Part shown: one piece after another, positions 15,062 to 48,084 of the stretch | Position numbering within the stretch: the stretch's first letter is position 1 | How the letters are laid out: the number at the start of each line of letters is the position of its first letter | Assembly (NCBI GenBank): GCA_963971425.1 | Contig: OZ020514.1 | Span: 13,583,218-13,647,217 of the forward strand | Reading direction: 5' to 3' | Origin: Bryoerythrophyllum caledonicum | Lineage: Eukaryota > Streptophyta > Bryopsida > Pottiales > Pottiaceae | DNA length: 64,000 nucleotides | Translations under genes and position numbers: made by a program | The notes under the pieces: generated by a model | What the model was told of the DNA's origin: nothing | Seen by the model: only the letters and a program-made list of their open reading frames with translations | The model's database searches: none

Positions 15062-15078
15062 AGGGCAAGTTAAGCATT

Positions 15079-20418: not shown

Positions 20419-20426
20419 ACACCTCG

Positions 20427-20740: not shown

Positions 20741-21497
20741 TGCACATTTTGGTATAGCCAAGCTGAATGTGCATTTGTACCACTTAGATCTAAAATCTAC
20801 TTGTTCTTCTCCACGTCACGAGAATTAGATTTCCTCAGCTCATCTCTACCCCTCTGAAGTTCATCTTTGCGGCTGTAACCGGTATATGGTATTTGACTAG
20901 CACGTATATGTTCTTGCAGTCGTTAGCGTTGCATTCGTTGATTCCAAGTAACAATTGGCACAAGAAGCGAGTGGTGACGGCGAGAGTGACGCTTTGAGTT
21001 TTGGTTTAATCCATGCTTTGGGGAAGCACTTTGACGTTGTATAGTCGGTCGAAGCACCTAGCAAAAGAGACCACAAAAATTAGCTTAAACCGAAGTTGAA
21101 TACGTAGCCACACATGTCAAAAAAATACAAACACCTTGACGTGGAATCCATTCAAATAATTATGTCCAATTTAGGTGTTTGTGAAACATGCAAAATCAAA
21201 ACAGTGTTGATTAAGAGGAGAAAATACAACACATACTAAACAATAACAAATAATAGGACCAACCTTTGTAGTAGAATGCGTTTTCCCACTTAGAGATTGG
21301 AGCTTGTTCTCATCATTTCCGACCATTGCAATAGGTCGACACGTAGTAGGAATTGTGGGCAATTTCTCTGATGGCGCCGTCGTAGATGGTTGAATTACAC
21401 CAGCAAGTGTTTGAAGAGCGTGATCCTATGACGTAGAGACAAAGGGAGTTAAAATGCAACTTGTGCATATTTAGCTCAATTTGAGCTGAATGTGCAC
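20741..21497. repeat. Two palindromes in the 3' part of copy 1
   Basis: A degenerate palindrome at 20741-20773 (right half AGCTGAATGTGCA intact, left half decayed) and a good one at 21463-21497 (GTGCATATTTAGCT ... AGCTGAATGTGCAC). Both are of the copy 1 arm type and lie in non-coding parts of the HAD gene region. Confidence 0.7.
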
Positions 21498-22980
21498 ATC
21501 GCCAAAAAAATACCTAGGACAAATACAGAGAAGGGGAGGGGGGGAATACCATGCAACGCAGGGGAAGAGACAATGATTCCTCACATCCGCGAACAAGCAC
21601 TTGGTCACCTTTCCCACAAATCCTATCAACACCGGGGGACCCCAAAATTCGACGAGGTTGAAGAATAGAACGGGAGGCAACCTTTCAAATGCAAAATTTT
21701 GGTGGGGGGCTGTTTACTTCATCTTCTTCAATTGGAGCCATCGAAGAGTCCATCAAATAATCAGCTGCTCCGCGGGAGTACAAATCATTTTGTTTTCGTG
21801 GAATTCGATATCCACAATCTTCTGACTTCAAAACTCAATCCATTGTGGCAATACAATAGTTTACTTGAGAAATTGGTAAACGGCTCTTTTCCAAACATGG
21901 AAGCAATGAGAAAACAAAAACTTACAAATCCAACAATAACAAACGAAAAATTTCAAACAAAAATCAAAGAACTGGCAACTGCCACTTGAATTACAAGAAT
22001 ATGTACAGTATAACACATCAACACAATTATGTTTGATACCAGAGAACTACTAATTTGTGAGCCCATCAGATATCGTAATCGCGTGCGTTAATTCCATGTA
22101 TTCTAAGTTGTATGGATCCGAGCAAATTGTTGGACAACCAAAGAGATTCTCTTGCCGAAAAGATTGCAGCACTAACTCTGCACTACTGTGGAGCTTCAAG
22201 AGCCACGGAAGCAAGACGTTGAGGAGAAACTTATCGTTCCATCCATCTCCTTTGTAAGACCAAGTATCCGCAAGAAGCACATTCTCCGGATCATTAAAGA
22301 CGTGCTTGTACGGGCTATCATCTATGATGATGATATTCTCCTTCGTAAAGGATCCACCTTTTTCAGTAAAAAGGTCTTTCGACAACGTCTTCAGAAATAC
22401 ATCCTAATCCGAGTTCTTAACCTTTAGATATTGAGGTACATTATGGATTACAGCAGTTACGACTCTCCTACAATGCTCTTGCCTAAATATGACTTTTGGT
22501 GAGGCCGCTTTCCGGAAGAGGTAATTGACGATGCTACTAGTGGTGTTCAATTTCATTGAACTCTAGACCGATATCGATGCAAACTTGGAAACAACTTCCA
22601 AAAATGCCTTGCAGCCAAAACGAACATATACTAGCTCTGGGCCGACCTTGGCTGGAACTTTTTACGGAGTGTGGTAGAGAACATGCATTGAAGGCTTGCG
22701 TAGCAGACCTCAAGCGGAATTCCTCACACACACAATATACCGTTCAAGTCAAGCACAATGTTTAACCATGGTTTGACGACTCTAGGGGTTGAACGAGAAA
22801 CACGGACTACGGCGCTATGAACGCTCTCCAGTGGCTCGACCACCTGGAATTCAGATGGGAAAGAGTGGAGGTACATGTTACTAAACATTAAACAATATAT
22901 AACACTAGAGCACCAAATATTATACGAAGAAGGAAGCACTGCAAAAGACAACACAATCTTTTGGCCATGAAGTGGTGAGA
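20820..22980 (-). pseudogene. HAD/NIF-type phosphatase-like gene, copy 1
   Basis: The N-terminal HAD motif is IVLDLNGILC (near 22750). The frame then shifts to KVPAKVGPELVYVRFGC (about 22660) and continues to IIIIDDSPYKHVFNDPENVL and LLNVLLPWLLKLH (22385-22230). This is the plant DLNG branch of the NLI-interacting-factor/FCP1-like HAD fold, in which the second aspartate of DxD is asparagine. TAG stands where copy 2 has the tryptophan of IWSSM, and another TAG lies before the DVFLKTL motif. Further exons probably follow at 21.2-21.4 and 20.82-21.06, where a charged tail ends RKSNSRDVEKNK. The same gene stands in the same place in copy 2. Whether the protein serves mobility or is a captured host gene is unknown. 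Confidence 0.65.
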
Positions 22981-23181
22981 TTAAAGTTATACCTGTGAGT
23001 TGATGGCCAAAGTAGCATCAATGGGCTTTGCACCAACCATAGGAGGATGCTCAGAAGAGCCAGCATTATCTTTGATGAAATCGAATTCGAGGCTTAGGGC
23101 ATCTGAAATTCAACAAATTTGATTATAGATTATGAACAAACATGCCCAAAAAATGTAACGACAGTTGGTACTAAATAGGAT

Positions 23182-23408
23182 TAATATTCAGCTCGACTCA
23201 AACTGATTGTGTTAGTGTATGAGTACTCAACAATAGGATGCACACAAGAGAGAGGACTACTTGAATCTCAAAGAGTAATGCATATTCAGCTCAACTTGAG
23301 CTGATTGTGCTAGTGAACGTTTACTGCACAACATGATGCACACAGAGGGAGAACATCAAGTAGTACAGAAAGTAATGCATATTCAGCTCGACTCAAGCTG
23401 AATATGCA
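23182..23408. repeat. Tandem array of palindrome plus spacer, about 97-bp period
   Basis: Palindromes start at 23182 (decayed), 23280 and 23376, the best reading TGCATATTCAGCT ... AGCTGAATATGCA. The spacers of about 65 bases resemble each other as direct repeats (both start TAGTG, contain GATGCACACA, and end AGTAATGCATATTC). It lies between the two genes of copy 1. Confidence 0.75.
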
Positions 23409-23714
23409 ATTGCCGTAACAATGACTTTAGGAGAAGGACCAAACATAACAAAACAAAGAGAGATATACTACTACATATCTGTAGTAGATTTACTTCAACT
23501 TAAGTGAAGTCTATAAAGGAAAAATAAAAGGATCAAGACGTGAACAACATACAACGAAGGGAAGTGATGAAGGAGATTTGAAATGGAAACAACATCGAAT
23601 TTACTGTGCCAAAGTTAAAACGGACAATAAACATCCAAGATTATTTACAAACATAAGTTAATGTACGAAAGTAATTGAGGAAACAAAATTAACAAAAAAA
23701 GAAATCTCGATATA

Positions 23715-25778
23715 CTAGTCCTCATCGAGAATTCCACCTGAAGAGTGTTCTGGAGATGCTCGAGTGTTGCTCGGTGTGTTGACTTCATTAGCAACTTCTG
23801 TCTCTTCCTCCAGGATCACATTTATTGGCTTCACACTGGGATCGGCGGAAACCATGGGCTCGGCTCCAACATAGGCTATCGCTTGTGGCGGAGAACGAAG
23901 AGAAGACGGATTCGGATCCGATGTCAGCAAAGACTATTGGACATACGCCTCTCCAAACAAGGGGACCGTCTCTATAATAGTAGGGCCTTGAGATGATGGT
24001 CTTGCAGCTGCCTCAGGACTTGCACCTAAAATATGCTCTATCGGCTTGGATTGCGGTAGCAACATCTGTTCAAACCTTGCAAACATAGATGCGATCATCG
24101 CTTGCGTGTTCCGCTCCATGGCGGCTCTCTGCGCTGCTAGGAGCTCATCTTGGCGCTCTTCCTACCGTCTTGACAACTCTTGATTGAGCCTCTCTTGCTT
24201 CTCGACCTTCTTTAAGAGCATCTCGACCTTCAATGCCGTATCGGCTTGTGCAGTGGGAGGGGACGTAGATAGCGCGGGCGAGTTAACCATCACATGAGTT
24301 CGTTGGCGCTTGTGTCGGGGCGTTGGTGCAGAAGCCATCACTTCAACGTCATCGTCAGTATTTCCATCTGAGGAATCAGCCCTACTTTGCAAGCGATGGT
24401 TGGATGGACCAGCACCATCTGCAATCACACTGCACCGCCGAAGAGCAAGGTCTTCATAATCATTGGAACAAAATGCACCAGTATTTGTGCCTTCATTAAA
24501 GCGAGCAGAAGCAAAGTCTGATGGCTCAGCTACCGCAACATCTAAGCTCGTAACATCCACAGAAGGCTGCTCATCATCATCTTCCTCATCATCATCGTCG
24601 TCATCAACTCGTCTCTTGTCCTTATCCTTACCACGAGGGGGCTTAACAGGATATTTTGTCTCGTCAACTGGATAACCGTCGGCAACGAAATCTGCTTTGC
24701 ATAGAGACAAAGCCAACTTTGCCTTGCTTTTGTACCAATCACTCTCAGAAGTCTCGCAGATGCAGGCACACCCTAGAGATTCGATCTGCAAGGTACACCA
24801 GAGACACTGGCAATCAATTAAACTAACTCAAGCGACATATAATTGCATTCTATGAAACTACACTACTTGCAAATTCAGCTCGACTCGAGCTGAATATGCA
24901 AGTGCTTATCGATCATTAGTCTCGGGTTGCATATTCAGCTTGACTCGAGCTGAATATGCAACTCGGAACGAATGATCGATACGCACTTGCATATTCAGCT
25001 CAAGTTGAGCTGAATATGCAAACAAGAGAGCTCCGGAGAAATTCTTACCATAGATGCAATAAGAAACTTTGAGCCTCCAAAGGCAAAGAAGACTAAGTAC
25101 CCGGGTTTGCACCATTGTTTGAGTACTTGATAGTAGAACTCCATCGTGAACTCAGTAGTGTTCACATGATACTCCAACTCTTGTACTTGCGGACCTTGGT
25201 GTTTGCAACATGAAGCGAATAGACATACTCCTTTGTAACTTAGTTAGGGCGAGCTAACTGCTTACGGACTAGCCAAAGAAGTTCCACAGAATCTTTCGAC
25301 AACTTGTTGCCTATTGGCAGATCATCGAGCCGCTCATACTTACCAGGAATGTATGCGGAACTATATGTCACGTATTTGTCCGCAAACAGTAACTTCTCGG
25401 TTAGGGAGAAGACTTGCCTCTCCTCTGTCTTGGTCCGACAAACCCATAGCCAGACATCTGGGTCTGTCAGTCCAGGGCTGCCTCCAGTCTGCAATGCCTC
25501 CATGAAGTCCTTGAAGAATGGGTTAGCCACCGTTGATGATGGCTTCAAATCTTGCCCGGGAGCTAATCTGAAATCGATCAATCGAAGCCGAGGCTTTTCG
25601 CCGCTGGGATCCCATGTATTTTCGGGCCACACACCCAACGCATCATTGATGATGTTATACTTCCGGATGTTTGCAGACCCGGACGCTTCTTCAAAGTGTT
25701 GGCGCTTGTCTAAGAACAACTTAAACCAAGCTTTCGAGTACGGCGATAGCTCCTCTGCAGACTTATTCTTGCTCCAAA
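23715..25778 (-). pseudogene. Long gene of unknown function, copy 1, C-terminal part
   Basis: Continues the exon cut by the CACTA element at 25779. The frame to 25240 contains WSKNKSAEELSPYSKAWFKL and LIDFRLAPGQDLKP. After TAA at 25240-25242 and a frameshift it continues to about 25050 (EFTMEFYYQVLKQWCKPG), ends at a GT donor, passes an intron with three palindromes, and resumes at 24788. The last part (24788-23715) has an acidic, K/R-rich linker and a coiled-coil-like tail (MERNTQAMIASMFARFEQ). TAG codons at 24162-24164 and about 23931 interrupt at positions where glutamine would fit. The protein is homologous to copy 2 at 44978-43067. I do not recognise a known domain; the gene is a candidate for the mobility protein because it is conserved in both copies. 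Confidence 0.6.
24867..25021. repeat. Three palindromes at exactly 60-bp spacing, spacers inverted
   Basis: Palindromes start at 24867, 24927 and 24987, each about 35 bp (TTGCATATTCAGCT ... AGCTGAATATGCAA). The two 25-base spacers are reverse complements of each other at 20 of 25 positions (shared block AATGATCGATA). The whole 155 bp is therefore a palindrome of palindromes centred on the middle unit. It lies in an intron of the long gene; copy 2 has three units in the matching intron. Confidence 0.85.
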
Positions 25779-25808
25779 CACTACTAGGAAAACAGTGGAA
25801 ATATGACT

Positions 25809-26600
25809 GGGTTTTATGACTACCAAATGTCATATGACTGGTTGATGACTACTACCAATTTTAGTCCTCAAGCCAGTCATAACGGACAAGTCAGATTCTG
25901 TAGTCAGATCTGCGAGCACGCGCTCCCACAGGCGCGTTCCCCAAAGATTTTTGGGACCTCGATTCTGGGCAGCCTGATAAATGTGACTACTGTTAGTCAT
26001 ATGTATGTGGCTAAGATTAGTCAGAACCATCTACGTATATTTAGTCAGCGTATTCAACTCCATGACTATTAATAGTCATATATGTATACATGTATACGAC
26101 TAAGGATAGTCAGCACCATCTGACTACATTTAGTCAGCTTTGTCAAGTACATGACTAAAATGCTGGAATGTAATGATGTCATAATATGACCACCAGTAGT
26201 TGGATGGAATGGTTGTGATGACTAGAATTAGTCATTCTTTCGGTTTAGATATTGGTGAAGGTTTGTCAATCATTCACATCCGCTAGTTTGTGTTTGAGAT
26301 GTGATGACTGTGTATTCTAGTCTTGGATGATTGGACCTAGTCACATGTAACAACAAGCGACTGGTACCCAACTGATTCTCCGCGGATTTTAATTAAGAAA
26401 CTCCACTAGGAATAGTCATCAACTTGGTACATTTTACTGCAGTTTCTGGTCCCGGTTAGTTATCATTCCCATATACCTTATTGCATTGTATGACTACTTG
26501 TAGTCAGAAGTTCACATACATTTAAGTATCCGCCCAATGATATGACTGAATAAAAGCTTTATTTTCGGTCAAAATGCTAAATAGTCGTTGCTTTCAAAAA
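25809..26600. promoter_or_regulatory. CACTA 1 subterminal TGACTA/TAGTCA repeats
   Basis: Many copies of TGACTA and TAGTCA occur, several as palindromic pairs with a short centre, for example near 26062, 26097 and 26217. A similar density appears at the other end (about 31400-31660) and scattered inside. CACTA elements carry such short subterminal repeats as binding sites for their second protein (TNPA in En/Spm), so these are probable transposition-protein sites. Confidence 0.7.
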
Positions 26601-26610
26601 TGCAAAAAAT

Positions 26611-27258
26611 CTAACTATGAATGGTCGTTGCTTTCAAAAATGTGACTACAGCAAATCTGGCCCCCTCGTAGTTAATCACCTTCTCAATACCAACCAACTG
26701 TTCTTTTTCACCGTCTGCAACACCCATGATTTCCACAACGTCCCCTTTGCTAAATTCAGAATGCGCTGAGGCTTCATCCTTCTGTCCACTTGTCTGCAAT
26801 TCCACGATCACTTGAAAATAATGGAATAAGGACTCCCACGAAAACTAATCATGCAGTTTAGAAAAGAACCAAGTGGGTAGTGTGACGACTTTCCTTACCT
26901 TTGATGTGCTCTTGTCCACCTGAGCCCCCACTTTGACTTCCTTGCTATCTTTTGCCACGACAATAGGGTTCCTTGATTTCTTTTGTTTGCCACCCTTTCC
27001 CCGTGTCTTCTTCTCCTCAACAATGGAGGATCCCTTCTCTGTCCTCACCTGATCCTGCAAATCAAGGGACTCCTCTCTCCTCTTGTAAACGCCGGCGGTA
27101 CCCTTCTTTGTCTGGGCTATTTCCGGCTCACCCCCGCTGATTTCGAGCTTCTGTACCTCGGTAATCCTCTTCCTCTTCTCACCAGCTAGACGATGCTTCG
27201 GCGGCGATGGCAAGGTGGTGTCCGCCTTGACTTCCTTGCCTTTGCTGACTTCTATCAT
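26611..27258 (-). pseudogene. Second gene of CACTA 1 (basic protein, spliced)
   Basis: Two minus-strand segments: 27258-26900, a lysine/glutamate-rich basic region (for example EEKKTRGKGGKQKK), and 26811-26611 (FSKGDVVEIMGVADGEKEQL, then EGARFAVVTFLK). A GTAAGG donor follows STSK and a TTTTCAAG acceptor precedes the second segment, so they probably splice. The second segment resembles a small beta-barrel of the KOW/Tudor kind, without certainty. The gene points away from the transposase, so the two may share the 27.3-28.5 kb region as a divergent promoter. It could be a TNPA-like DNA-binding partner; the family is not recognised. Confidence 0.45.
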
Positions 27259-27589
27259 CTACACATCGTCGCATTCTTCAGACTCCTGTTTACCTTAGAA
27301 TCAACTACTACAGTCACTAATGAAGGCACGTAGGATAAAGGGGGAATTTCTGACTAATTCTAGTCAGCTATGTAAAACAGGTGACTAACTTCAGTCATAA
27401 AATCCATAAGCCTCGTCTTCTCCGCACTCGGTGGACGAGGCTCGTCCTCTCCACACTGGGTGGACGAGGCTCCTGCAGCAATAGCAACAAGGCAGTTTTG
27501 TTAAATGGAGATTTCATCATTACATCAGATTACATCAGATCTAGTGTTTTCACACCAGCTTGCAACAAATCAGACTATATCCACAACTA

Positions 27590-28160
27590 ACCTAGACGGT
27601 TTCTCACTCTAATACTCTAGATTTGAGTAGGGTTTAGTAGATCAAGCTAGATCTACATCAGATCTAGTGTAATTAGGCCAGATCTACAATACCCACAACC
27701 CAATTTCACCACAAATGCTCTTCAAACATCAAGATCTATTCACACCTTCAAACCCTAACACAAACACACAATAGATAGTAGAAAAGTCTTGCTTTACTTC
27801 CTCAAACGTCCACAAAGTCCACATCCACACACACTCTAACCCTAGATCCACATAACACATCAATCATTCACTAGCTCTCTAACTCCAACCTACACACTCC
27901 AAGTTGCAATACCTCAAGAGAGAGAGAAAAAGAGAGAAGAGAAGAGAAGAGAGCCTCCAAGTCCTAGAGGGCGGCTCTCTACCCCCTCCAAACCCTAATA
28001 TGCCCTAATGGATGAAAGGTGTCCGGATAGATGACATCCATGTCCGGACAGTTTCATCCAAAATCTGGACAGTTCATCCAAAGTCCCGACTTGACAGTTT
28101 CATTCACTGTCAGTCCGGACAGTCTCATCCACTGTCCAGATTCATCCACTGGTTAATTTT
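27590..28160. other. Leader-like region with GA-rich tract and TGTCCGGACA words
   Basis: Contains AAACCCTAA words, a GA-rich microsatellite (about 27915-27955) and a cluster of TGTCCGGACA-like palindromic words (28020-28140). No supported gene. It lies between the two divergent genes of CACTA 1 and may hold their promoters, or may be captured host leader DNA. Confidence 0.4.
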
Positions 28161-28510
28161 TACCAATAAAACTACTTAGTAACTCAAAAAATTACTACCT
28201 AGAGCTTACAATAAGCCTAAATCTCCGGTTAACAAGTTTCATCCGGTACTTTCTCCACTTTGTTGTCTTCTTCCATCTACACGTCCTCTATTCCCTCAGG
28301 CTCATGTTCTCCCTCCTGAAAATTGAAAACAACAATCGTCAGTCATGGCAACTAAACAAAGTGAACAGGGAACTTTTTGACTAATTCGAGTTTGAAATGT
28401 TAAGTACATAACTAGCTTTAGTCATACGTTCAGTGACTCATGACTAACTTCATCTACCTTCGTTTTGTCACCCCCGCTGTCACTTCTAGATTCCTTATCC
28501 ACGTTCTCTG

Positions 28511-30120
28511 ATGAACTTTCTAATGCTGGTCCTCCTCATCCCTGGAAAAGAAAGCGTCACATCGGAAAATATAGATGTGTACTTGGCCCCACTTATTGAA
28601 GAGCTGCAGCAACTCTGGCATGGTGTGAATGCTGTTGATGTCTCTGATGACAGTCAAAACAAGAATTTCATCCTCAAAGCGATATTGATGAGGTGCATTC
28701 ACGATTATCCTGCATATGGTCTTGTCTCTGGGCAGGTGACAAAGGGTTGTAGAGGATGTATTGAATGTGGCCCGAATGTTAGTACTCGTTGATCAGCCGC
28801 ACTAGGGAAAAATGTATATTTGGGACATCGGAGATATCTAGAAAGGAATCACCCGTATCGACGACTCCGAAGAGCATTTGATGGTACGGAGGAAATTAGA
28901 GCTCCTCCTTGCTCTCTAACTAGTTGAGATATTGTGCGCCACGCTAAAGCGAGGAAAAATGGCTAAATACACCTAATGAGATCAGAGAAGGGGGGGAGAA
29001 TGATCGAGTGCATGAAACTGGAGTGAAGAGGTTGTCAGCCCCGTACAGTCTTCCATATTGGCAAGTTAGTCTATCATATCAAATGAAGACCTTACTATTT
29101 GTTCCCCTGCTCTTGTGTTATTATGTGACTACAGAAGTAACGTATTTGAGTATATGTTTATGATTCTGCACTCAGCACATGACTAGGTAGTGACTGAGGA
29201 AGGATAACATGACTAGTTTTAGTAATGCAAACCAAATGTACAACTAGGTATTGACTGAGCAAGGCTGATATGACTATTTTTAGTCATGCAATCCGAATGT
29301 ACGACTACATGCCGTAGTCAGAGTGTTTGTAAATGTTCTAACACTCATCTTTTGCACATTCGGCAATGTCTCATGATCCGCCATGTGCTAGATCCAAAAC
29401 ACTGCGAAAAAAATTTGTGGGAAAACATCATGAAGACAATATGGGGATTGAAAGATACACTAAAGTCCGACTCGACCTTCAGGAGGCTAAGATACGTCTC
29501 AAACTCCACCCTCAACATGCTGGAAACGATACCATCATACTACCAGTTGCTCCTTACGTGCTGTCAAAGGTGGAGAAGGAAAAATTCATCAAAACTATCT
29601 GCAACGTAAAGACTCCCAGCAATTACGTGGGGCAGTTGTCCAAGAGGATAACCGTTGACAGAGACCTTTGTGGTCTTAAGTCACATGACTACAACATAAT
29701 GATGCAACAGATTCTTCCTTTATGTGTGCAAACACTTCTACCAAAGGAAGTTTGGGCAGCAATAATTCGGATGAGTGTTCCAGCGTTTTATGTGTGAAGT
29801 CTGTGGATCCTTCAACAATGGAAGACTTGATGGAAGAAACAACAGTCACTATGTGTATGATGGAGAAGGTCTTCCCACCGTCGTTTTTTGATGTCATGTC
29901 ACATCTGTCGATTCACTTAGTGCAACAATCAGACATTTGTGGTCCGGTCCACACGCGTTGGATGTACCCTGTGGAACGGTATCTGAAAACGTTGAAGGGC
30001 TACGTACGGCAACGAGCACAACCGGAGGGGTCGATGGCAAGAGGGTACGTCATGGAGGAGGCGCTTGGATTTTGTACTGAGTACATGCAAAATTGTACTA
30101 TGACATCACGTCGTGTGTAG
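28511..30120 (+). pseudogene. TNP2-type CACTA transposase, broken
   Basis: Motifs of the En/Spm TNP2 family occur in order: LLIPGKES and NIDVYLAPLIEELQQLW (28520-28620), DYPAYGLVSG, VYLGHRRYL, then (after a shift) CEKNLWENIMKTIWG, LSKVEKEKFIKTIC, GLKSHDYNIMMQQILP, and the DUF4218-type region FPPSFFDVMSHLSIHLVQQ and WMYPVERYLKTLKGYVR. The N-terminal part before LLIPG is missing, several stops occur (TGA after STR, TGA after LTS), and at least two frameshifts are needed. The transposase cuts at the CACTA ends. This copy cannot be active. Confidence 0.9.
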
Positions 30121-31660
30121 GACGACAAAGAGGAGCCCAATATGAATGACGAAGTGTTGTAAGGGAAGGGAGACGACGCATATTGTCGATGGAACTGCAA
30201 CAATGGATTCATGAGTTCGTGCTTAACAACGCCGAAATCCTTCAAGATTACAGAGAGTATGTACCCAAGCAATATAATTCTTACATGGTAATATATGATT
30301 AAAAAGCACTACGTGTGGTCATCATTTTAGATTTAAGGACTAGCTAATAGCAATAGACAGACGAAACAGCCAAGAAATAAAGGAAACGACTAAGTATAGT
30401 CAATTAACAGATGACTAACAGAGGTGATGAGGTTCTATTCTAACAATTTAGGAAAAATAGCGTACTCGAGGTGATGTGTATACTGCAGGCGGTATGCGAG
30501 TGAAATGAGTCGACGCAAAGAGGCCAGATCAAAATTAGACCAAGTAGGAAACATACTATGATATGTAGTAGCATTGGTCTCAATAATCGTATTGACTACA
30601 CTCAGTCAATGATTCTACATGCACGACTAATACAAGTTACTCGTACGACATTACTGTCCATAGTGTCTAAGAGTAGTTTTTGAAGTGCAACAACAGGCTC
30701 AATCCACGTTGCTAATTCTTCATTGCCAACGTATACAATTGGAGTTGCCTTATAATTATCTTCAACGTCACTCATTGATTAAAGAACATGCATGTGCACT
30801 ACCTCAAATTAAAATTCAAGATTAGTCATCAAAGCAAATCTAAAACAATTATTGAGAAAAAATTCAGCATGGACGTGAAATGGGCACAAATTGAAAAAAA
30901 ATAAAAAACTGGTAAAAACTAGGGAGAGGTAGAGTAAACAAAAGTGCAAAGAATACATGAGGGGAAGAAGCGTTGTAGTCAAAACAAAATTATCATTTTC
31001 AAAAAGAGAAAAACAAAACATCACCGCAAAGTATATAAATGACAAGTACTTGAACAAGGAGCAAAGAGAACTGCAGTGATTGTAGACGGTGAAAAGGGTA
31101 ACTGGAAAAAATATCCACGACATCTGAATTGATAAAATGATATGAAAACGTAGGAAGAAAAATAGTTATGGAATGAATAAATATTAAAAAAAGGCACAGG
31201 CTAGTTTGTTTTTGAAAAGAAATTTAAAAAATACAATATAGAAAAGATTAAAACCTTAAAGGAACGAAATAAATTCCAAAAAAGAGTGTAAACTGAAGAA
31301 AGAAAAGTCTAATTGAAAGAATAGATCAAACATAAACAAAAGTATATAAATTTGAATTAAAACCAAAAAGGCTCCACTCTACAACCCTCTCACAATTGGC
31401 TGCCCAAAAGCATAGTCAAATAACAACTATATACAGACATATTGTTGCCCAAAACGGTAGTCACATAACGACTAAATCTAGTCCTATGGCTGCCCAAGCA
31501 AAAAATAACAGGAAGAATACGTTCCCTATGGAGTTCCTATTGAGGTCCCGAGAAAATATGACTAGAATCATAGTCATGTGATGACTACAGCCATTTTAGT
31601 CATCAAAGTGGTCACTGATGACTGCATTCCAACCAAAAGGAGCTTGTAGTCATATGGCCG
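30121..31660. other. 3' part of CACTA 1 without further gene
   Basis: AT-rich with scattered TGACTA/TAGTCA words, dense again from 31400. No supported reading frame. Confidence 0.5.
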
Positions 31661-31691
31661 TAGTCATATTTCCACTGTTTTCCTAGTAGTG

Positions 31692-35541: not shown

Positions 35542-35556
35542 GTGGCGACTAAGTAG

Positions 35557-36333: not shown

Positions 36334-38170
36334 CATGTGGATGAGGTAATTCATAACCGGTCCATGCCCTTCTTCTCAAAGGCCCCAATTGTCCAATCCT
36401 CTGGTGCTGATGATAACTGCCGCACGTCCAGCTCCTTCTTCATGTCAGGGTCGTAGACGAAGCAGTCCAGGCAATCTGTCCAAAACTTTTCGTTCACCTC
36501 CGATGCATTCCCGTAGTCAATGGCTTCTCCGAGACGCAACTCGTGCGGCTGAACGGTGATTGCAAAGACGATGCTGGCCTCACCATCTAGCTTACCAACT
36601 TCTTGGTTTTTTGCACAAGATTTTAGTGCTCTTTGAGTTGAAGCCTCCAGAGCGAGTGATCGACGCTGCCTCTTTAATGGCGTTGGGTTTGCAGATAACG
36701 ACTTCCTCGGATTTGCCTTGCCAGTTCTAGCCGCTGCAGTCCTCTATCTAGTGTTACCGCCTTGGCTAACGTTGCCACTCTCGGTCCGACGAGAGACCTC
36801 TACCGGAGTCATCTCGGATGAGGTCTGCGAGTTTTCAAGAACCTTCATCGCCATTGCATGGAGGAGACTTGTCAACTTCGATGACAAAGCTTTAGCGCAA
36901 AGAGGCCCACCAATGTTGCTCTTCCAATAATCTTCGTCCTGTTGTTTGAGGATGTCTTTCTTTATTGACTCAAACAATGAGTTCTCAATACTGTCGAGAA
37001 AGGGATCAAGGCTGAAGACTTGAGTCATGCAGTCGATGAGAACCGTGTACTGAAGACTGCTTTCAGTTGTCGTCTCATTTTTAACCACGGGGAACTTCTT
37101 GTGGTGGTCAAACTCGATTATCTTCTCATCCGGTGAAACGTGCAAGAACATAGCCATGCCTCGAAATTTGTGAGTCAACACCAGGCTGTTAGAGTGACCG
37201 ATATGTTCGAACCCCCACGCCTCATGCCTCTTTGGATCTCGAAGCTTGTAGTAGTTGAGTAACTCGTGCTCCTCTCCGTCGTCGGACTCGATCACAATAC
37301 TTATTGGTTTATAGTATTCCTCCAGGACCTCTTGGTCCTTCATTGGATTTTTACAATGGAATCCGTAAGTGAAGTCAAATTTTACTATGCGTACTTAATG
37401 CATCACAGTATTTTCTCAAGTTTGCATATTCAGCTTGAGTCAAGCTAAATATGCAATACAACGATTAATTGCACAAGTGTGGTTCCGTCAAAAAGTTTCA
37501 AGTCTTGTATTACAACTTACGTGTGTTTGTAGTCTTTTATCATTTCTTGTGCACATTTAGCTTGACTTGAGCTAAATGTGCACACAAAGCCTGTTTTACT
37601 GTGCACACTTAGCTCGTATCAAGCTGAATGTGCAGATTAATATTATATAACGCCCATGAACTAATGAACTGAACGTGCATATTCAGCTCGAGTCCAGCTG
37701 AATGTGCACAGAAAGCTCATTAGACTGAGTAAATTCAACTCGAGTCCAGCTAAATATGCACACATAGCTGAAATGAAGATGCACATCCAACTCGACTCTA
37801 GCTGAATGTGCACATTATGATCAATCATTCACGCACATACTAATGAGCCGGAAGAGCATATTCAGCTCGAGTCAAGCTGAATGTGCACACAAAGCTCATC
37901 ATACGCTACACATTCAGCTCGAGTCGAGCTGAGTATGCACATCATTCAAAACTGAACGTGCACATTCAGCTCTACCCGAGCTGAATATGCACTAATTATA
38001 TGAATGAGAAATTACAAAATTCATTCAAATTGCAAGTTCCGTAGGAGTCTACCTACCTCATTTCCATTTTTTGCAGCCTCTTAAATCTTCAAACAAACGG
38101 CTTGAGGTATGTCACACAAAGGAGCTGCTTCAGTGACAAAATGTCCCCTCTTTGAATCATAATCCAATCA
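36334..38170 (-). pseudogene. Long gene of unknown function, copy 1, N-terminal part
   Basis: Exon 37343-36340 reads ISIVIESDDGEEHELLNYYK, GFEHIGHSNSLVLTHKF, a glutamine-rich helical stretch, then after TAG at 36744-36746 a basic region (GKANPRKSLSANPTPLKRQR) and IDYGNASEVNEKFWTDCLDC up to WTIGAFEKKGMDRL. An upstream exon, about 38170-38057 (HFVTEAAPLCDIPQAVC, TAA, EAAKNGNE), ends at a GTAGGTAG donor. Intron 1 between them holds nine palindromes. The exon 37343-36340 matches copy 2 at 47359-46380. The basic patch could be a nuclear localisation signal. No recognised domain. Confidence 0.6.
37422..37992. repeat. Nine palindromes in intron 1 of copy 1
   Basis: Units start at 37422, 37549, 37601, 37675, 37729 (decayed), 37780, 37856, 37907 and 37958. 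Steps after the first are about 51-54 or 74-76 bp. Arms are GTGCACATTTAGCT or GTGCATATTCAGCT with matching right halves. Spacers alternate in orientation: AAAGCTCATTAG-like after some units, its complement CTAATGAGC-like before others. Copy 2 has a similar cluster in its intron 1. Confidence 0.85.
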
Positions 38171-39453: not shown

Positions 39454-40890
39454 AGGTAAGATTACACACTCTTCAACGCACTATGATGATCCTCGAATAG
39501 GAAAATGTGCCTTGCATTTGCCTAGATAGCACCAATATTCTCATTGTCAGTTTTCTGTGTAGGTTAAAAATGATTCACGTTGCATCTGCGCCGCAAGTTC
39601 CAAGGCTTCAACACAAAAATGCTCATAACCTACACTCAGAAAACTCACATGCAAATCCAACATCACCAATCGCAACCAACGACACCAAAATCCTAAAAAA
39701 CTTCTCTGAAGCCGAAACCCTAAACCTGAACCTCCATAATGCAATCAACTCCGACCCTTCCTCCTGTGCTTTTCAACCTCAAAACAACCAAAATTTTAAA
39801 ACCACGGCACCAAAATTCTAAAATCAAAAACCTCAAACCAGCTCGAAAATTCTAAAATTTTCTTGAAAATCCAACCTCAAACCAGCTGGATCCCACGAAA
39901 CCTCAAACCTCAAACAGCCACGAAACCTCGGATCGACTTCACACGATCTTATCTTTAGTTGATAACCAGCGATCCCACGAAACCAGCGATCCCACAAAAC
40001 CTCAAACTTCAAATTCACAAGCCTCTCGACACATGCTTACCTCATGATGGCGTGCGGCGATGGATCTGTGGCTATGCGGTGATGCGCCTGCGCTTCGGCG
40101 TCGCATGCAACAAGATGAAAAGGGACTCCCTTCGTCTCCCTCCAGCCTCTTGCCCTCCGCCGTTCGCACTGTTCCCTCGCATGTTCCCACGTTTGTTGCT
40201 TTCCTTTTCCTGCTTCGCTGTTCGCATCGCTTCCTTCTTTGTTCTCATGATTCAACACCATATTCGTTACATTGGAAAATTTCCATGATTATGAAGATAT
40301 ATGGTCATTGAAATATCAATAAATTTAGACATTTGAAGGTGCAACGCATAAAGACAATGTATCAAGAATACTATATTTCATTCCATGAATGGACCAAAAT
40401 AGCCGAATGTCCAAAAAAGTGGTAACGGTAAAGGAAGCATATACCATTAATCCAAGCATTATTCAAAACTTCGTAAAAAAAAGTCACACACAACATTCAT
40501 TTACCTCAAGGCAAAACACAATCGCCCTATCACTAATCAAACAATCTAGGGAGTTCCTCCATAAGCCTCTATACGCGTCTTCAAAAAAGCCCTCTGACGT
40601 TGCACAGTCCATGTTGCGCCATTCTCTTGCATTAATGGACTCTCAAGAAGACGCTGCAAACCCCGCCTTCGCACCTCGTCCGTGTTTGATTTGGGCAGCG
40701 AGTGACGGCGGGTGGGAGCGGTAGGAGAGCACTTGATTCTAGCAGCATTTCTTGAGAGAATACGGGGGCGGAGACATTTACCAGATGGTTCTTGCAGAAT
40801 AGGCGCCACAAACAATCCAAACAAATACACTTTAGTTCGAATACACCTACACGGCACACATGAAAACTGTATCATCAAGATCCATCCTAG

Positions 40891-40921
40891 TGCACTTTAG
40901 GTCGAATAGAGCTAAAATGCA
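40891..40921. repeat. Decayed palindrome near the 3' end of copy 2
   Basis: TGCACTTTAGGTCGA ... AGAGCTAAAATGCA, with the copy 2 arm type and several mismatches. Position corresponds to the unit at 20741 in copy 1. Confidence 0.6.
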
Positions 40922-41049
40922 GAAGGGAAAATTCACAGAGAAAATTTAACATCCAATGAACAAAAACAAGCTCAAATGAAGCAAAACTACAAGAGTGCAA
41001 TGTAGCTCAACAACAAACAAAGACTGCCTAGGCAAAAACGACTCAATAG

Positions 41050-42370
41050 TGCAATAACTTGGAGGTCAGCATAACAAACACCGTGAGCGAGCGTTGATAA
41101 GTAGCATCCGTTAAACCGTCATAGAGAATACGCTTTGCCGGAGTACAATTATCCGGATTTAGACGCGGAGACCCTAGAATTGAACAAGGCCACTGCGGCG
41201 AAGGTGAGTTGTTCCTTTCATGAATTGGCTCCCGCGTAATAGGGCTTTCAACAACTCCGTCGTCCACTGCCATGGTCGAATAATCCATGGTTGACAGCGC
41301 GGTTGCAGTAGAGTGCAACAAAAGCCCTTTACTCCGAAGGAAAAGGGCGAACTCCTATAGGCCCAACAAGGAATCCACGGACGCCCGACAATCACAGCCC
41401 TGTAGAAATTTCAACAAAAGTGACACTCACATACCTCAGAACAATAGATGAAAACTCCAATCTTTAAAAAGAGGACGACATTCCATCAGCAGTAGGTATC
41501 CAATCCGCACAATAAACACAGTGGAGAAACATCTCCATTTGTATTATCAAAAAATATATATATACAAAACATGGTCCAACAAAACATGTTCAACACGGTA
41601 CTGCGCTAGGCCACCCGGGAACAGATGAAGGTCAGAAAGATATGGCAGCAATTCCTCCAGCAGTACAGAATCATCTCTCGCGCCATCATGGTTGTGCGAC
41701 CATGACGGAAGTAGAAGGACGTTCTCTGGCAAATTGAGCACATGCTTAATTGGGCTATCGTCAATGACAAGCGTATTTGCCGAAGTATACTCACGACCCA
41801 ACCTATTGAAGAGATGATTTGATATCGTCTTCAAGAAGATGTCCTTTTGAGTGCCAAATTCCTTCAAACACCATATTCATTATATTGGGAGATTTCCATG
41901 ATTTTGATCTAGTGCACATTCAGCTCTACTCGAGTTGAATGTGCATAGTGGGTACATTTTAGAGCTCAAGAGCAACATACGTATTGAATTGGGAGGCTCA
42001 CAATCTCCCAATATAATGAATATGGTGTTTTCATGTAGATTGTTCTGCTACCAACTCTACGCTCGGGAACCCTATCGCAACTCTCATGACCAAAGATCCT
42101 GAGAGGGTACGAAGAACTATGCTGGAAAAGATAATTACAAATCTGACGCGTTGTGGATTCCATCATCGAACTCCAGATTGTGATGGTGGCAATCTTAGAC
42201 AACTTCGTGAGGAACTGAGCACAACCAGGGCGAACTCGGACTAGTTTAGGGCCTACTTCGGCCGGCTGCGAAGCCGAGTGAATGGAGCTGTCAGAGTCCC
42301 TCGATCCCCTGGCCTGCCACGAGGGCTCACACGTGCATAGAACCCCATTGAGGTCCAGCACAACATTCAA
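41050..42370 (-). pseudogene. HAD/NIF-type phosphatase-like gene, copy 2
   Basis: The first exon begins MNVVLDLNGVLC (HAD motif I with D-x-N instead of D-x-D), then PKLVRVRPGCAQFLTKL and ATITIWSSMMESTTRQI (HAD motif II region). After the 163-bp insertion the frame resumes EFGTQKDIFLKTISNHLF, TLVIDDSPIKHVLNLPENVL and LLEELLPYLSDLHLFPGG, the typical end of the plant DLNG-type NIF domain. More exons probably follow at 41395-41045. The core region is open apart from the insertion, so this copy is better preserved than copy 1. Loss of the second aspartate suggests altered or absent phosphatase activity, but the same change is normal in this plant subfamily. Role in the element unknown. Confidence 0.7.
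41867..42029. mobile_element. 163-bp deletion derivative (MITE-like) of the two-gene element
   Basis: 28-bp perfect terminal inverted repeats beginning AACACCATATTC, identical over 25 bases to the copy 1 terminus. Flanked by TTCA on both sides (41863-41866, 42030-42033). Between the ends it holds one palindrome of copy 1 type (41912-41946) and little else. Removing it with one TTCA rejoins the HAD reading frame without a break, which supports a true 4-bp target duplication. Confidence 0.9.
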
Positions 42371-42943
42371 CCACCTACCCTCGAAATCTTATAGGACTCT
42401 AGGTATTTCTTCTAGATTATTGGCACCACTTATTGATGCCTCGCAGACCTGGTTAAGAAACGCCAGGAGAACGAACAATATTACTAAAGATTCATTAACA
42501 ACGACAAGTCAACATAATGTAGAACGAAAGAGAGCAAACGGGGGGGAAGCAACATGGGGAAGCGCAAAGTATATATAGTGTTAGAAAAGCACCTCGAGAA
42601 CTTCATCGTCTTGGAGCAATTCGTCTCGGACCCCCATCGATACCAACGAAACCCGAATGGTGTCAAGGGATTCCGAGTGCCCCAGAACGATTTGGGGCAC
42701 GGTTCCGGGACAAGAAGAGGGGGCTCTGGGACATGAAAATCATGATTGATCTCGTCTACGAGCACGGCCGAAGCTTGGACAACATCTTCTATGACTGGGA
42801 CTACAGTTTGGACGACCTCGTCTATGACAAATTGAGCGATCGTGTCATCACCAAAACTTAGGTTTGAAAAAATTCAACAACTTCAACCTTTCAGCAGATG
42901 CGCACATAGGACACTGATACAAGTCAGAGTCGTCAGATGTCAA

Positions 42944-42972
42944 GCAGTTTAGCTCGAGTCGAGCTGAAGTGC
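42944..42972. repeat. Palindrome between the two genes of copy 2
   Basis: GCAGTTTAGCTCGAG ... CGAGCTGAAGTGC, copy 2 arm type with one mismatch. It occupies the inter-gene position that holds three units in copy 1. Confidence 0.75.
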
Positions 42973-44058
42973 TCGTTGAGCTCTATAATATTACCAAAAA
43001 TTACTGAAGTACAAAATTGGACATTTACAAAATGTTTTGCCTCTATACACTCGCAACTACATTACACTAACATGACGATGAGCTGGGGACATCAACGACA
43101 GATACGTCCCAAGCGGGCGACTTCAGAGAGAAAGACGGGCGGGTTGGCTGGGACGAGGGATCAGGCAGCGATTGAGCCCCCATGGAGACGGGGGAGGAAC
43201 CCGCCGGAGACGGCATCAGCGAACCGCGAGGCAGGCTCCCAATCCCTTCTTCAGCTGAGTAGGGAGGTAGGGGGATTGTAGTATTCACTACGGGTGGTGT
43301 CGTGGCGACAGGAGGCAAAGTAGCCGTCATGAATCTCTGCATCATGAGCATCATGTAGTTATGCCTCTGGTCTTGGTCCCTCTTCATCTCCTCGTCATGC
43401 CTCCGCTGCAGATCCCTGAGCTCCTCGTCTCGCTCCGCGAGCCGCTACTCCATCAACCTCATCCGGGTGGCCTCCTCTTCGAGCTTCTTCTCGAGGGCAA
43501 TAAACCTGGTGGCGTCCTAAGCATTGCTCGCCGTTGCCAACGGAGAGCGGCCAGCCGCGCTAGCAACTTTCCTCCTCTTGGCCGCGGGCCAAGCGGATGA
43601 TCCACCCAAGGTGAATGAGGCTTCTCGGAGATATCAAGCGATTCCAACTCCAGGAAATCGAGCCGCTGCCACGAGGTACCCATTGTCTCTCCCGCTTCAG
43701 ATTGAAAGCCACTATGAAGCTTCGGCCCTGGCGGTATCGAAATCGTCATAGGAATCGGCATCAGATGTGGCCGTACTGAAGCTCGGGCACACACCCAGGG
43801 GGCTCAGGACCACATCCTCTTCCTCTTCCTCATTGACGAGATCAATAACCGCTTTCCCCTTCCCCTTGGCAACGGCCTCTCCAAGCTCGGGGAAGATCTT
43901 CGCGTTGACGTGATATGCATCAAGTTGCAACATTGAAATTGGTCCGATCCAACGTCAACGCGACCTCCATGGCGTCGTCGAGATCATGTTCATCGGTGTT
44001 GTGGGATATGCAGAATGCCTCCAGATCCAACATGTGCACACTAATGGATTGAATAGGT

Positions 44059-44305
44059 TACATTTTAGGTCAAATCGAGCTAAAGTCAATACAAAGGAAC
44101 ACTCATACAAAAACGCAGCTATTAAAACTTGAAAGGATACAACTTGATTGATGACTACTAGAAAACCATATAAATATAAGCCGACACTTTAGCTCGACTC
44201 GAGCTAAAGTGCCACGCTACAAAAGCATAAGAGACGACCTCTCAGAAACAATACATGCACAGTCAGAGAGGGTATCAACAGTTTAGCTCGAGTCGAGCTA
44301 AACTG
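44059..44305. repeat. Three palindromes in a late intron of copy 2
   Basis: Units at 44059-44088 (decayed), 44185-44211 (CACTTTAGCTCGA ... TCGAGCTAAAGTG, perfect) and 44279-44305 (CAGTTTAGCTCGA ... TCGAGCTAAACTG, perfect). The two perfect units differ at one arm base and compensate on the other arm. The homologous intron in copy 1 also has three units (24867-25021). Confidence 0.85.
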
Positions 44306-45763
44306 CAGAGATACTTACCACACTCGCAGTCAGTAATTTCGTCCCGCCAAACAGCTGGACAATTGAATCCCCCCTCTTGTAGAATAGCTCCAGGACCTTG
44401 ATGAAGAACTCCATCCTCAGCTCGTTCATGTTCATGGAGTACGCCAGCTCATTGTACTTGCATAGCTTGGTGTGCAACACATGCTCCGGAGCTGTGTAGG
44501 TCTTCTTCACGGCCGGGATCTGCGTAAGCTCCTTCATCAAGAGAAAGAGGAGGCGAACCGGGTCTAGAGCGTTGTTGGTCTTTGGGGCATATCCCCCTAA
44601 GCGCTCATTCTCGGAGGGAAGATACTTCAACTGCAGCACGTTGTACGCATGACACAACGACAGGCCCTTAGCAAACACTGTCACTTGAAGGTGTGACTGC
44701 TCGTCGCCGCAAATAAAGAGCCACGCTGGAAGACCTGTGAGGGGAGGCTGCCCTTTCGATGCAAACATCGTCATGAACTCGTCAAAGAAGGGCCTCTCCA
44801 ATGACGATGTTGCCTTCTCTAAGAAACCAGGGATATTCCGGAAGTCGATGATGCCGAGCTTCACGTTGCAGCCCATGTTATGCCACAAATCTGAGGGCCA
44901 TCCTCCAAGCGAGTTGGTTGCCGCCTTGTATGGACGAAATTGCAAGGCACCCTGAGGTGGAACGAACCGCGACCGCACATCGAGGAAGACTCCGAAGAAC
45001 TCTTTCGCTTACGGAGAGAGATCCTCACATTTGCAGTTGCGAAACTACGTCTGCCATGAATCCTTGTAGTACGAATCCGGTGGACCCCAATCCAAGAGGG
45101 CACGCTTTGAGGCCTTGCTGACGTTGTATTCCTTCTTGAACTTCCGCCAGTTGGCCCGACTGTACGCTCCAGTGCTATTAAAGAGGGCAAGCTCCGGCCT
45201 GATGAATTGAAGCTCCATTCGAGCGACCTCCTTCCTCTTCCTTCAATCGACCCAGTCCCGGGCAATGTAGCAATCCTCCAGCACAGATTGCGGCTGCTTC
45301 ACAACCACCTTAGGATAAGGTAGTTTCCACGATGGTCCTGATCAATTGAGTATATGCTTACACATTGTTGCGTGATCAACCTCGGTCATGTTGCCGAAGA
45401 ACTTGAAGAACTCGCGCGTCAAAACCCCATCTTTCTCAGGCACCGAGGACTTGGCATCCTTAAACTTTGACAAGGGCGACGTTGTTGAATCGACATTGAT
45501 GAGGTCGCCTTGCGCCGCCGAAGAGATGACATCCGACCAGAGCTTGAAGGTCTCATCAGACGAGGTGATAATCTTCACCTTGTTCGTAATCGAGAGCTCC
45601 TTTGCCTTTCCGGCTTTCTTGAGCGCTGCGTGGCTCTTCGCAACGTCAATCATTGCAAAGCGCTCACGAACCGCGTTTAGAAATGGCTGTGCAGAACATT
45701 GGCAAGGTTGATTTAGTTTACAATCACAGTAGAAAATATACGTGACGAGCAGGTCCGGAAAAT

Positions 45764-45887
45764 GCAGGTTAGCTCGAGTCGAGCTAACTTGCAACCGGAG
45801 AGTATACACTATAAGCAATTGAATCTGTATACACTACTATACTAAAAGTGTGCAAACACACAAGTTAGCTCCAGTCAAGCTAACGTG
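45764..45887. repeat. Two palindromes in the middle intron of copy 2
   Basis: Units at 45764-45792 (GCAGGTTAGCT ... AGCTAACTTGC) and 45859-45887 (CAAGTTAGCT ... AGCTAACGTG). Each has one arm mismatch. The homologous copy 1 intron holds two units with ATATTCAGCT arms. Confidence 0.85.
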
Positions 45888-47425
45888 CAGGACCTTGATT
45901 TAGTATTATTACCTCAAACTTGTTGTCATTCGCAATCTCCACTACAGTTCTTCGACCAGACTTGTGAGACCCGCGAATGCCCGCGGCGGAGTGCTTCGGC
46001 ATTGGTCTCCCAGCTTGGATCCACAAAGCACGAGAGCCGAGGATATTCGTCGCCCACGTCGGCTTGAATTGGACCAAGTGAATTATGCGATTATAATATG
46101 TGGAAATCTTCCTCAGCTTCTCCGGGTCCTCCATCCAGACAATGTAACACTGCCATGTTCGAAAGTGCCTTCTCATAACCTCCGGGATGTTGCCGTTAGT
46201 CATCGACTTTGATGTTGCAACGTTGTGCTGGCCGTTGATTACATAGAAGTCACAGTCGCTGAGCTCCTCAATCGTCGTTGGCATATGATCGAGCTTGGGC
46301 ATGACGCAGTGAGTCTGCTTCTGCGTCTTGTCTGGCATTTCGAGGTAATAATGCTTCAACTCCTCCATACCCCGAGGTTTGAATGCACGGATCGTCCACT
46401 CCGGCGGTGCATTATGCAGCCTCATCACGTCAAGATCGATCTTCATCTCTCTGTCTCCTTGGAAGAAGCAGCTCTAACACTCTATCCAGAATTTCTGGTA
46501 AATCTGTTGGACGTTGGTGTAGTCGATTACCTCTACGAACCCAAGCGCCTGAGGGAGCTCTGACAGTGCAGAGGCCATCGAATTGGCCAATTCCTCCTCT
46601 GAAACAAGCTTCGTCTTCTTCCTGGAAGAGGTCTCCGATTTCTTGGCAGCTGAGCGCTTCTTGACGGGGGAAGCGGACAGTGTGTTGCGCAGGGTGCTTC
46701 GACTTGTTCTTGCACCTGGGGTTCAAACCGGTACCAACGCTTGACTCATATTTTGGCTACCGGTCACGGCCCCTGAAACTACCGAAATTTCTATTGGGCG
46801 CCTCCCCGCGATTAATTTTGCCTTCAAGAGCAGCAAAGGTACTCATTCTGGATAGAATGACGCGGAGTTTATTCGCTACAGCCTTCGCTTTCAGCGGCTG
46901 ACCACTACTAGTCTCTCATTTCTTTTGTGAGATTTCGTAGTCGACCTGAGCCACTATATCATTAAATTGTGACCCCCTAAGAGAACTGACTAAATTGTGG
47001 ATACAGAATGGAGACAAAGTATTGTTCACTACAATAGTAAACAAATAAGGATTGACAGACTCAGTGGTTGTCTCACACGACAACTTCACTAGATCGTTAT
47101 TTATTGGACTACATCAGTAATTTTGGTCTTAAAGTCGGTGTGTTGGGGTTCACTGATATCACCAGCGAAGGTCTGACCAAACACTAGATTATCTGTGTAG
47201 GGGGCCCACAGCAACGTCCACTTCATTGTCATCGATGGGTCTTTGAGCTCCCAACAATCCAAGTGATTGTTGTTGTCTCCATTGGCATCATCAATGTCGA
47301 CGGGCTTTGGCTGGAAGAAGTGCTGCAGCTAAGTCACCAGCCTGTCTCTCTCAGATCTGCACACATACAAAATCGAGCACAAATATTTGATTGCTAAATT
47401 GATCATCCAGTAAGGACGGAGAGGT

Positions 47426-48084
47426 TACACTTTAGCTCGACTCGAGCTAAAGTGTATCCGAATGCAAAGTATTTCAGTAACACTCTGCAACATAATATAG
47501 TCATTTGTAATATTTTCCTAAAGCCATTCAATCAATTCATGACATCTTCTTGTTCAACTCCCGAAATTGTGAAAAAGCTTACGAACCGATCCAATCACTC
47601 ACGAAGCTCACTATATGAGGTTCTCAAGTGGTTGGAGCGGGACTTAAGCTCATGCACAATTGCTGAGAGGTGAACGAGAAGTGGACATGAGTTGGGTCAT
47701 CGATATCATCAGTAACCTTTACTTTTGGAATGTTTTTAGGTCCGAAAGTAGTGGAGTTTGAGTTGTGGTTTATGTCATTTGTTTTACACTTTAGCTCGAT
47801 TCGAGGTAAAGTGTGTTGGATTTGATGATTAGATAGATAATTTATTTTGATAGGTAGAGTTATCGAGTTGTGAATATTATCAAATGCATCTATGCCCGCA
47901 CTTTAGCTCGAGTCGAGCTAAAGTGCCAACAAAGATGCATTGGTCCTATACAGTTTAGCTCTTGTCGAGCAAAAGTATACTGGTCTAATGCATCTTTGTC
48001 CGCACTTTAGCTCAAGTTGAGCTAAAGTGTAGCCAACAGTGTGCTATTCCCGCTCCACTTTAGCTCGACTCGAGCTAAAATGTG
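47426..48084. repeat. Six palindromes in intron 1 of copy 2
   Basis: Units at 47426-47456, 47786-47814, 47898-47926, 47947-47979, 48002-48029 and 48056-48084, arms CACTTTAGCT ... AGCTAAAGTG. The last four are about 50-55 bp apart. The spacer after 47926 contains CAAAGATGCATTGG and the next spacer contains the near complement CTAATGCATCTTTG; the spacer before 47898 has the same inverted form. So spacers alternate in orientation as in copy 1. Confidence 0.85.

Follow-up and report, generated by a model that had tools for sequence, protein, structure and literature searches.

Intronic palindromes with lineage-specific spelling in a putative moss transposon family are candidate sites bound by the long protein that the element encodes

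The DNA considered here is a stretch of 64,000 nucleotides from the moss Bryoerythrophyllum caledonicum (assembly GCA_963971425.1, contig OZ020514.1, positions 13,583,218 to 13,647,217; hereafter the window), which contains two degenerate versions of one long gene, copy 1 and copy 2, and a short insert within the latter. Their introns carry palindromes of 31-33 bp that share the core AGCTCGANTCGAGCT, are spelled differently in the two copies and may be sites bound by the long protein itself. Both copies lie on the minus strand. Copy 1, with the TCAGCT dialect of the palindrome, occupies 20427..38000 (the limit at 38000 being approximate) and was recognised by a common end and homologous exons; two nested insertions interrupt it. 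Copy 2, with the TTAGCT dialect, occupies 40254..48199 and has the same end at 40253.

From their sequence, we conclude that copies 1 and 2 are probably DNA transposons and that the insert is a miniature relative of them. The 29-bp perfect inverted ends of the insert recur at 20426 (27/29) and 40253 (24/29), on the 3' side of the gene in both copies; in copy 1, this end match spans 20427..20454 on the plus strand. As the base preceding AACACC differs in all three end copies, the element probably starts at AACACC. The insert then measures 163 bp (41867..42029), is bordered by a 4-bp TTCA repeat (identified by eye), lies within the phosphatase exons of copy 2 and contains one palindrome with copy-1-type arms (centre 41929). 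A duplication of 4 bp would presumably fit a Sola1 transposon. Inverted ends together with a target-site duplication were found for the miniature insert alone, copies 1 and 2 showing one end each; the right ends of both copies were not found in searches with the end sequence, or with the end plus the expected duplication. Gene duplication as the origin of the copies was rejected in favour of transposons, because the end sequence is common to both copies and the insert. Recent duplication does not apply either, since identity of the long protein in the longer conserved pieces (33-57%) indicates too much divergence. What an earlier note on this DNA had described as two copies and an insert can thus be recast as two broken DNA transposons with a common end and a miniature element. 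Both copies are dead. Copy 2 has several in-frame stops; copy 1 contains one as well and, in its exon regions, two nested elements whose ends resemble those of CACTA transposons (by eye). No transposase domain was detected in ten open reading frames (ORFs) of the copies scanned in the window or in the related database proteins P0002, P0003 and P0009, a search limited by incomplete 5' ends.

In the window, no palindrome falls inside an exon recognised by homology (judged by eye). Copy 1 starts on the 3' side of the gene with a decayed palindrome (20741..20774, by eye), followed by a late-intron palindrome retrieved by the palindrome search (21465..21495), by three palindromes between the coiled-coil exon and the FCP1-like exons (23182..23407; centres 23197, 23295 and 23392) and by three in intron 3 (24869..25019; centres 24884, 24944 and 25004). 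The exon 3 region is interrupted by a CACTA-type element encoding DUF4218 (25779..31691; ends by eye, 3-bp TTT duplication). Intron 2 contains two palindromes (32379..32454; centres 32394 and 32439), and the exon 2 region is interrupted by the second nested element (32797..36333; CACTA-like ends by eye, 3-bp ATG duplication). Neither nested element carries a palindrome of the family. Upstream of the remaining part of exon 2 (36351..37394, minus strand, one in-frame stop), nine palindromes occur (37424..37990; centres 37439-37975), partly in 52-bp tandem units; this stretch is called intron 1 by analogy, exon 1 of copy 1 not having been found. Similarly, copy 2 has one palindrome near its 3' side (40891..40921), one between the coiled-coil exon and the FCP1-like exons (42943..42973), three in intron 3 (44059..44307; centres 44074, 44198 and 44292), two in intron 2 (45763..45889; centres 45778 and 45874) and six in intron 1 (47426..48084; centres 47441, 47800, 47912, 47964, 48016 and 48069). 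Its recognised exons, all on the minus strand, comprise the FCP1/NIF-like phosphatase exons split by the insert (41625..42388), exon 3 with a helical region, a methyltransferase-like domain and in-frame stops (44307..45690), part of exon 2 with the ParB-like stretch INGQHNVATSK (45912..46722) and exon 1, read by eye as ATGGCTGAAAG followed by GTAAGT (48189-48199).

The abundance of the palindromes is far above chance, which was ruled out as their origin by comparison with shuffled sequence. Indeed, the core was matched 32 times in the window with at most two mismatches, against 0.08 expected from 100 dinucleotide shuffles; one of these matches, at 45211, lies inside coding sequence and is no palindrome. 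Requiring 13 or more of the 15 arm pairs left 21 palindromes (range 21480-48016), against none in three shuffles. Down to 9/15 arm pairs, copy 1 had 18, copy 2 had 13 and the insert had one, and the window showed none outside these three elements. The total of 33 claimed earlier therefore holds when the decayed one is counted; of the 19 then ascribed to copy 1, 18 are recognisable and the 19th is probably the remnant at 20741-20774. Each palindrome consists of two half-sites of the form ..(A/T)T(C/T)AGCTCGA flanking a C:G centre. Five viral contigs contain the 15-bp core, which in none of the five extends to 12/15 arm pairs; these matches were hence taken as chance and a phage or bacterial origin of the palindrome was dropped. 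Further scans of viral contigs yielded neither a match nor a relative.

Relatives of the long protein were retrieved from other mosses. Of 16 proteins found with the copy-2 protein as query, 15 belong to Ceratodon purpureus, and one cluster counts 139 members. For 11 of the 15 Ceratodon matches, the contig measures 110-112 Mb and the gene has a U or V name. High similarity and amplification in C. purpureus suggest recent activity there. A second and a third search, each scoring about 8000 candidates, returned at least 108 proteins, including some of Physcomitrium patens, and at least 144, respectively; among the matches listed (for the third search the best 120 of 144), the only organisms were Ceratodon and Physcomitrium, apart from contaminants in metagenome-assembled genomes (MAGs). 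Two such contigs, L001 (CADCWO010000269.1) and L002 (CADCWO010000243.1), came from a scan of prokaryotic genomes, in which they belong to AVDCRST_MAG81, labelled as a Synechococcales cyanobacterium; they were taken as moss contamination because they carry an intron-bearing moss gene. Protein P0026, labelled as uncultured Leptolyngbya (AVDCRST_MAG94), shares 99% identity with the L001-based query, a further case of contamination in deposited MAGs. Copies 1 and 2, L001 and L002 are the four elements known at the DNA level.

The examined exons of the long gene are open in L001 and L002, and the ratio of nonsynonymous to synonymous divergence between them is 0.14 for exon 2, 0.12 for exon 3 and 0.26 for exon 4, at a synonymous divergence of about 0.8-1.1. 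This shows that the long protein is under purifying selection in three exons. Both contigs contain eight palindromes, none of the 16 in coding sequence, though 66% and 75% of the respective sequences are coding. As no palindrome was found in the window exons either, the earlier observation that coding exons are avoided applies to all four elements. At four orthologous sites of L001 and L002, all 72 positions up to 9 bp from the centre are identical, as are 109 of 120 up to 15 bp. Identity amounts to 79% for all sequence up to 15 bp from a palindrome, whether paired or unpaired, against 53% for the introns outside palindromes (Fisher 6e-10). The centre base is C or G in 42 of the 48 palindromes of the window, L001 and L002 (on the sense strand, C in 23 and G in 19) and is flipped between C and G at three of the four orthologous sites despite identical neighbours. 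This suggests that it may sit in either orientation, as if the palindrome turned over as a unit. Outer arms and asymmetries are largely common to orthologous sites, which argues against homogenisation within an element.

The half-site consensus is TGCAYATTCAGCTCGA in copy 1 and RCACTTTAGCTCGA in copy 2. The base at position -8 is C in 30/36 copy-1 halves and T in 25/26 copy-2 halves, and these counts bear out an arm spelling specific to each copy (TCAGCT and TTAGCT, respectively). In addition, the outer CA of copy 2 is 1 bp closer to the centre in both halves, so that the dialect difference exceeds base -8. The copy-2 arms resemble the operator of KorB, probably by chance. The claim that the opposite half had changed to match, beyond what the consensus of the copy imposes, stood clearly for copy 2 and not for copy 1. 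When right arms were redealt among the sites of one element, the observed pairing over 15 positions was reached in 8 of 2000 shuffles for copy 2, 57 for L002, 126 for L001 and 141 for copy 1. Single sites thus tend to keep their symmetry beyond the consensus, strongly in copy 2 only, which could be explained by selection for symmetry or by templated repair. The CpG of the half-site is intact in the relatives (L001, 32/32; L002, 31/32) and partly eroded in the window, with C retained in 24/36 and G in 27/36 halves of copy 1, and C in 25/26 and G in 20/26 halves of copy 2. This erosion fits methylation-driven decay of dead elements and is no proof of protection in live ones. The observed/expected CpG ratio is 0.79-0.94 in the elements and 0.56-0.79 in two flanking stretches.

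The arm type follows the phylogeny of the linked long gene, as the earlier note had proposed for testing. Many database ORFs run past the splice junction of exon 2 into the intron, where the palindrome becomes visible as a peptide, namely SLARFELN or FSSTRAK for the TTAGCT type and FSSSRADY or QLESS-stop for the TCAGCT type. A tree of 45 rows combined both window copies, L001 and L002 with those 41 of 115 proteins whose tails were labelled by eye; it left out P0019 and P0026 (the loci of L002 and L001, respectively), proteins without a tail and those with unclear tails (for example P0048, P0058, P0059, P0075 and P0111). Hence, 41 of the 45 dialect labels were read from peptides, assuming that a first-codon serine is TCA and a first-codon leucine TTA. 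On this tree, in which 12 rows fill less than half of the columns, eight branches are flagged as long and near-copies inflate clustering, the -8 base needs two changes, against a shuffled mean of about 15 (0/500 as low). Similarly, five core types need four changes, the minimum possible (shuffled 13.2; 0/200 as low). The C-type elements known as DNA (copy 1, L001 and L002) fall on one side of a branch with 100/100 support, a result that stands without copy 2; the latter groups with P0009 and Ceratodon proteins, and both window copies form long branches in the tree used for branch support.

In some clades, both halves of the core seem to have changed. The peptide SDRVDLM fits TCAGATCGAGTCGATCTGA and SARLALN fits TCAGCGCGACTCGCGCTGA, and core variants read from peptides, AGATCGA..TCGATCT and AGCGCGA..TCGCGCT, fit a change on both sides. 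Among 79 proteins fetched later, once the rule was fixed, 18 were usable, as their junction was recognised and the tail behind it measured ten residues or more; the motif was present in 15 of these 18 tails, against 0.28 in shuffles, and P0162, one of the three misses, has the near form FSSTRPK. A codon-degenerate palindrome test was weak, with 35/47 compatible tails against 12.8 when shuffled, and 782 compatible peptide windows elsewhere in the 115 proteins; the motif test on the later set is the cleaner of the two. The earlier note had left the choice between co-evolution of each copy's sites with its own protein and gene conversion. The dialect following the gene agrees with the former; conversion between the sites of one element is less likely to be the main cause, given that orthologs share outer arms and even asymmetries.

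The long proteins of Ceratodon measure 1291-1587 amino acids. A precomputed FCP1/NIF-like phosphatase domain is annotated in nine of the first 16 matches and was confirmed in P0002 and P0003, with Pfam NIF (PF03031) above cut-off in both and nothing in P0009. It was the sole match above curated cut-offs in the sequence searches (P0003 and P0009 against Pfam, NCBIfam and PHROGs, P0002 against Pfam only, and alignment A1 against the PDB). Proteins of the VANC type, known from Arabidopsis transposons, have a Pfam domain, and none of that type was found by the Pfam scan of P0002, P0003 and P0009. By fold comparison of predicted models, methyltransferases accounted for all 50 rows among the matches listed, and six ParB-family chains matched weakly at residues 288-429; for the exon-2 model, nothing useful was retrieved from a viral fold library. 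The pattern surrounding the catalytic motif was matched by 21 of 194 proteins, all 21 of which read D(F/L)R at the expected catalytic position, as do L001, L002 and both copies, and DPP(Y/W/F) occurred in none of the 194. If this position is motif IV, as the model would have it, the protein is predicted to possess a methyltransferase fold without its catalytic motif. A putative ParB-like region is weakly indicated, and the modelled architecture makes binding of the palindromes by the long protein plausible.

Judged slightly better than even, the reading favoured here is that the palindromes are sites bound by the element's own long protein and co-evolving with it, most likely for anti-silencing. 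The two half-sites around the C:G centre would be bound by a dimer of this protein, which may combine a PH-like domain, a ParB-like region, a methyltransferase fold devoid of its catalytic motif, a coiled-coil-like region and an FCP1-like phosphatase. Occupancy of many intronic sites would mark the element as the protein's own and most likely hold host silencing off it; other elements would be spared, because each lineage spells the palindrome its own way. We infer the long protein as the binder, its binding as a dimer and an effect on silencing in preference to control of transposition or transcription; by analogy with known systems, anti-silencing would be favoured as the effect of reading the sites, with a role in transposition second. 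In support count the sites being far above chance, intronic, constrained, dialect-following and, in one case, kept in a miniature element, together with purifying selection on the long protein, core variants that fit a change in both halves, the modelled folds and published parallels. The ParB-like fold is a weak match in the model, and all recognisable sites seem intronic, as sites acting in RNA would be. A more elaborate version appears rather unlikely, in which a ParB-type protein taken up by moss transposons and fused to a catalytically dead methyltransferase would load at the intronic palindromes, much like bacterial ParB at parS, spread along the element and shield it from host silencing, its FCP1-like tail would act on RNA polymerase II, and lineages would escape one another by respelling both halves.

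Among the alternatives, it is improbable that the palindromes are cis sites of a transposase used for mobilisation, with dialects tracking that transposase instead of the long protein. Subterminal repeats are transposase sites in some plant transposons, and the miniature insert retains a site at a distance of about 48-78 bp from one of its ends. However, most palindromes lie deep inside the element, in introns, and the distance from the known end to the nearest recognisable site is 0.64 kb in copy 2 and 1.0 kb in copy 1, where a decayed site lies at 0.3 kb.

Ranking next, and equally far from convincing, are hairpins in the pre-mRNA, stem-loops near 5' splice sites that would steer splicing or nuclear retention. 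The seemingly exclusive intronic position keeps this explanation alive, as does the spacing in introns 2 and 3, where each of the four elements has its first centre 27-45 nt from the intron start (by eye). A selected RNA stem should favour G-U pairs, but G-U-type and A-C-type mismatches on the sense strand are equally frequent (20/80 each; pairs 1-13 of 48 palindromes), which weakens the case, within the limited power of this comparison. Moreover, the two introns around the FCP1-like exons of L002 have no site (by eye), and the miniature element carries a palindrome without having a gene.

Still less probable is the absence of any trans-acting reader, the sites having arisen by local duplication and their symmetry by quasi-palindrome templated repair and gene conversion. 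The tandem units of copy 1, the better match of same-site than of different-site arms (8/2000 in copy 2 and 57/2000 in L002, as above) and the flipped centre bases, as strand switching would produce, all agree with it. Near-perfect conservation at high neutral divergence, the persistence of sites in dozens of elements behind one splice junction and the sharing of outer arms by orthologs do not. Least probable of all are sites of a host transcription or chromatin factor kept as intronic enhancers, which constraint and intronic position would fit, whereas lineage dialects following the element's gene, apparently symmetric core changes and the adjacency of both dialects in this window are unexpected for a single host factor.

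The reading as binding sites of the long protein has a parallel in the VANDAL transposons of Arabidopsis, whose VANC proteins, according to the parts of PMC5735166 considered, remove silencing via element-specific motifs that lie outside coding sequence, also within introns, and fall into C and T subgroup types. As in the moss family, a short transposon-specific motif is found mostly in non-coding DNA, subgroup types occur, and protein and motif diverge together (PMC5735166 and PMC10398659, the portions considered). Unlike the moss sites, which are palindromes of 31-33 bp, the motifs of VANC21 are 9 bp long and arranged in single-orientation arrays, and the word 'palindrom' is absent from the main text of PMC5735166. 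The moss family thus has the VANDAL/VANC-like trait of a family-specific motif in non-coding DNA with subgroup types. A second parallel concerns the domains. Proteins with ParB-like and methyltransferase parts occur in algal transposons, for instance Sola1-1_Ec32 of Ectocarpus, and have been proposed to bind and modify their own transposon (PMC12477816, as far as its text was covered). Compared by description, both have an amino-methyltransferase-type fold and, putatively in moss, where the match is weak, a ParB-like one in the same long transposon protein; the moss protein differs by D(F/L)R in place of the expected DPP(Y/W), by an additional FCP1-like domain and by the presence of candidate binding sites. 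Thirdly, bacterial ParB, KorB and Noc, in the sources as far as they were covered, act on palindromic operators (parS), and the ParB-like N-domain fold is weakly matched in moss; however, the moss case involves a eukaryotic transposon with many intronic sites, and no partition partner was seen. Finally, dispersed palindromic elements of organelle and bacterial genomes are non-coding and dispersed as well, whereas the moss palindromes belong to one transposon gene, occupy orthologous positions and are spelled by lineage.

The open-licence literature searched yielded no paper on the moss family, and PMC12477816 as the only relevant one for ParB-methyltransferase transposon proteins. Those algal proteins had thus been noticed already, but their sites are not named in the portion of PMC12477816 considered; the moss family supplies conserved, lineage-specific candidate sites. 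It is present in the laboratory moss Physcomitrium and amplified in Ceratodon, including the sex chromosomes, so that a selfish, sequence-specific self-recognition system may become testable in a moss with easy gene targeting. This would be a possible second, independent case beside VANC of Arabidopsis.

The remainder of the window contains further repeats. Fragments at 38300-38900 (minus strand), adjoining copy 1, resemble by eye a plant protein of the ANGUSTIFOLIA/CtBP type, an assignment that we presume and that no search confirmed. Pieces of a piggyBac-type transposase (PF13843) are located at 28-1917 (minus strand), a Ty3-type retrotransposon remnant with RVT_1, RNase H and integrase at 12045-15062 (plus strand) and a MULE transposase domain (PF10551) at 57345-59574 (minus strand). 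Two separate tandem arrays with a 64-bp period are present at 60084-60292 and 63742-63876.

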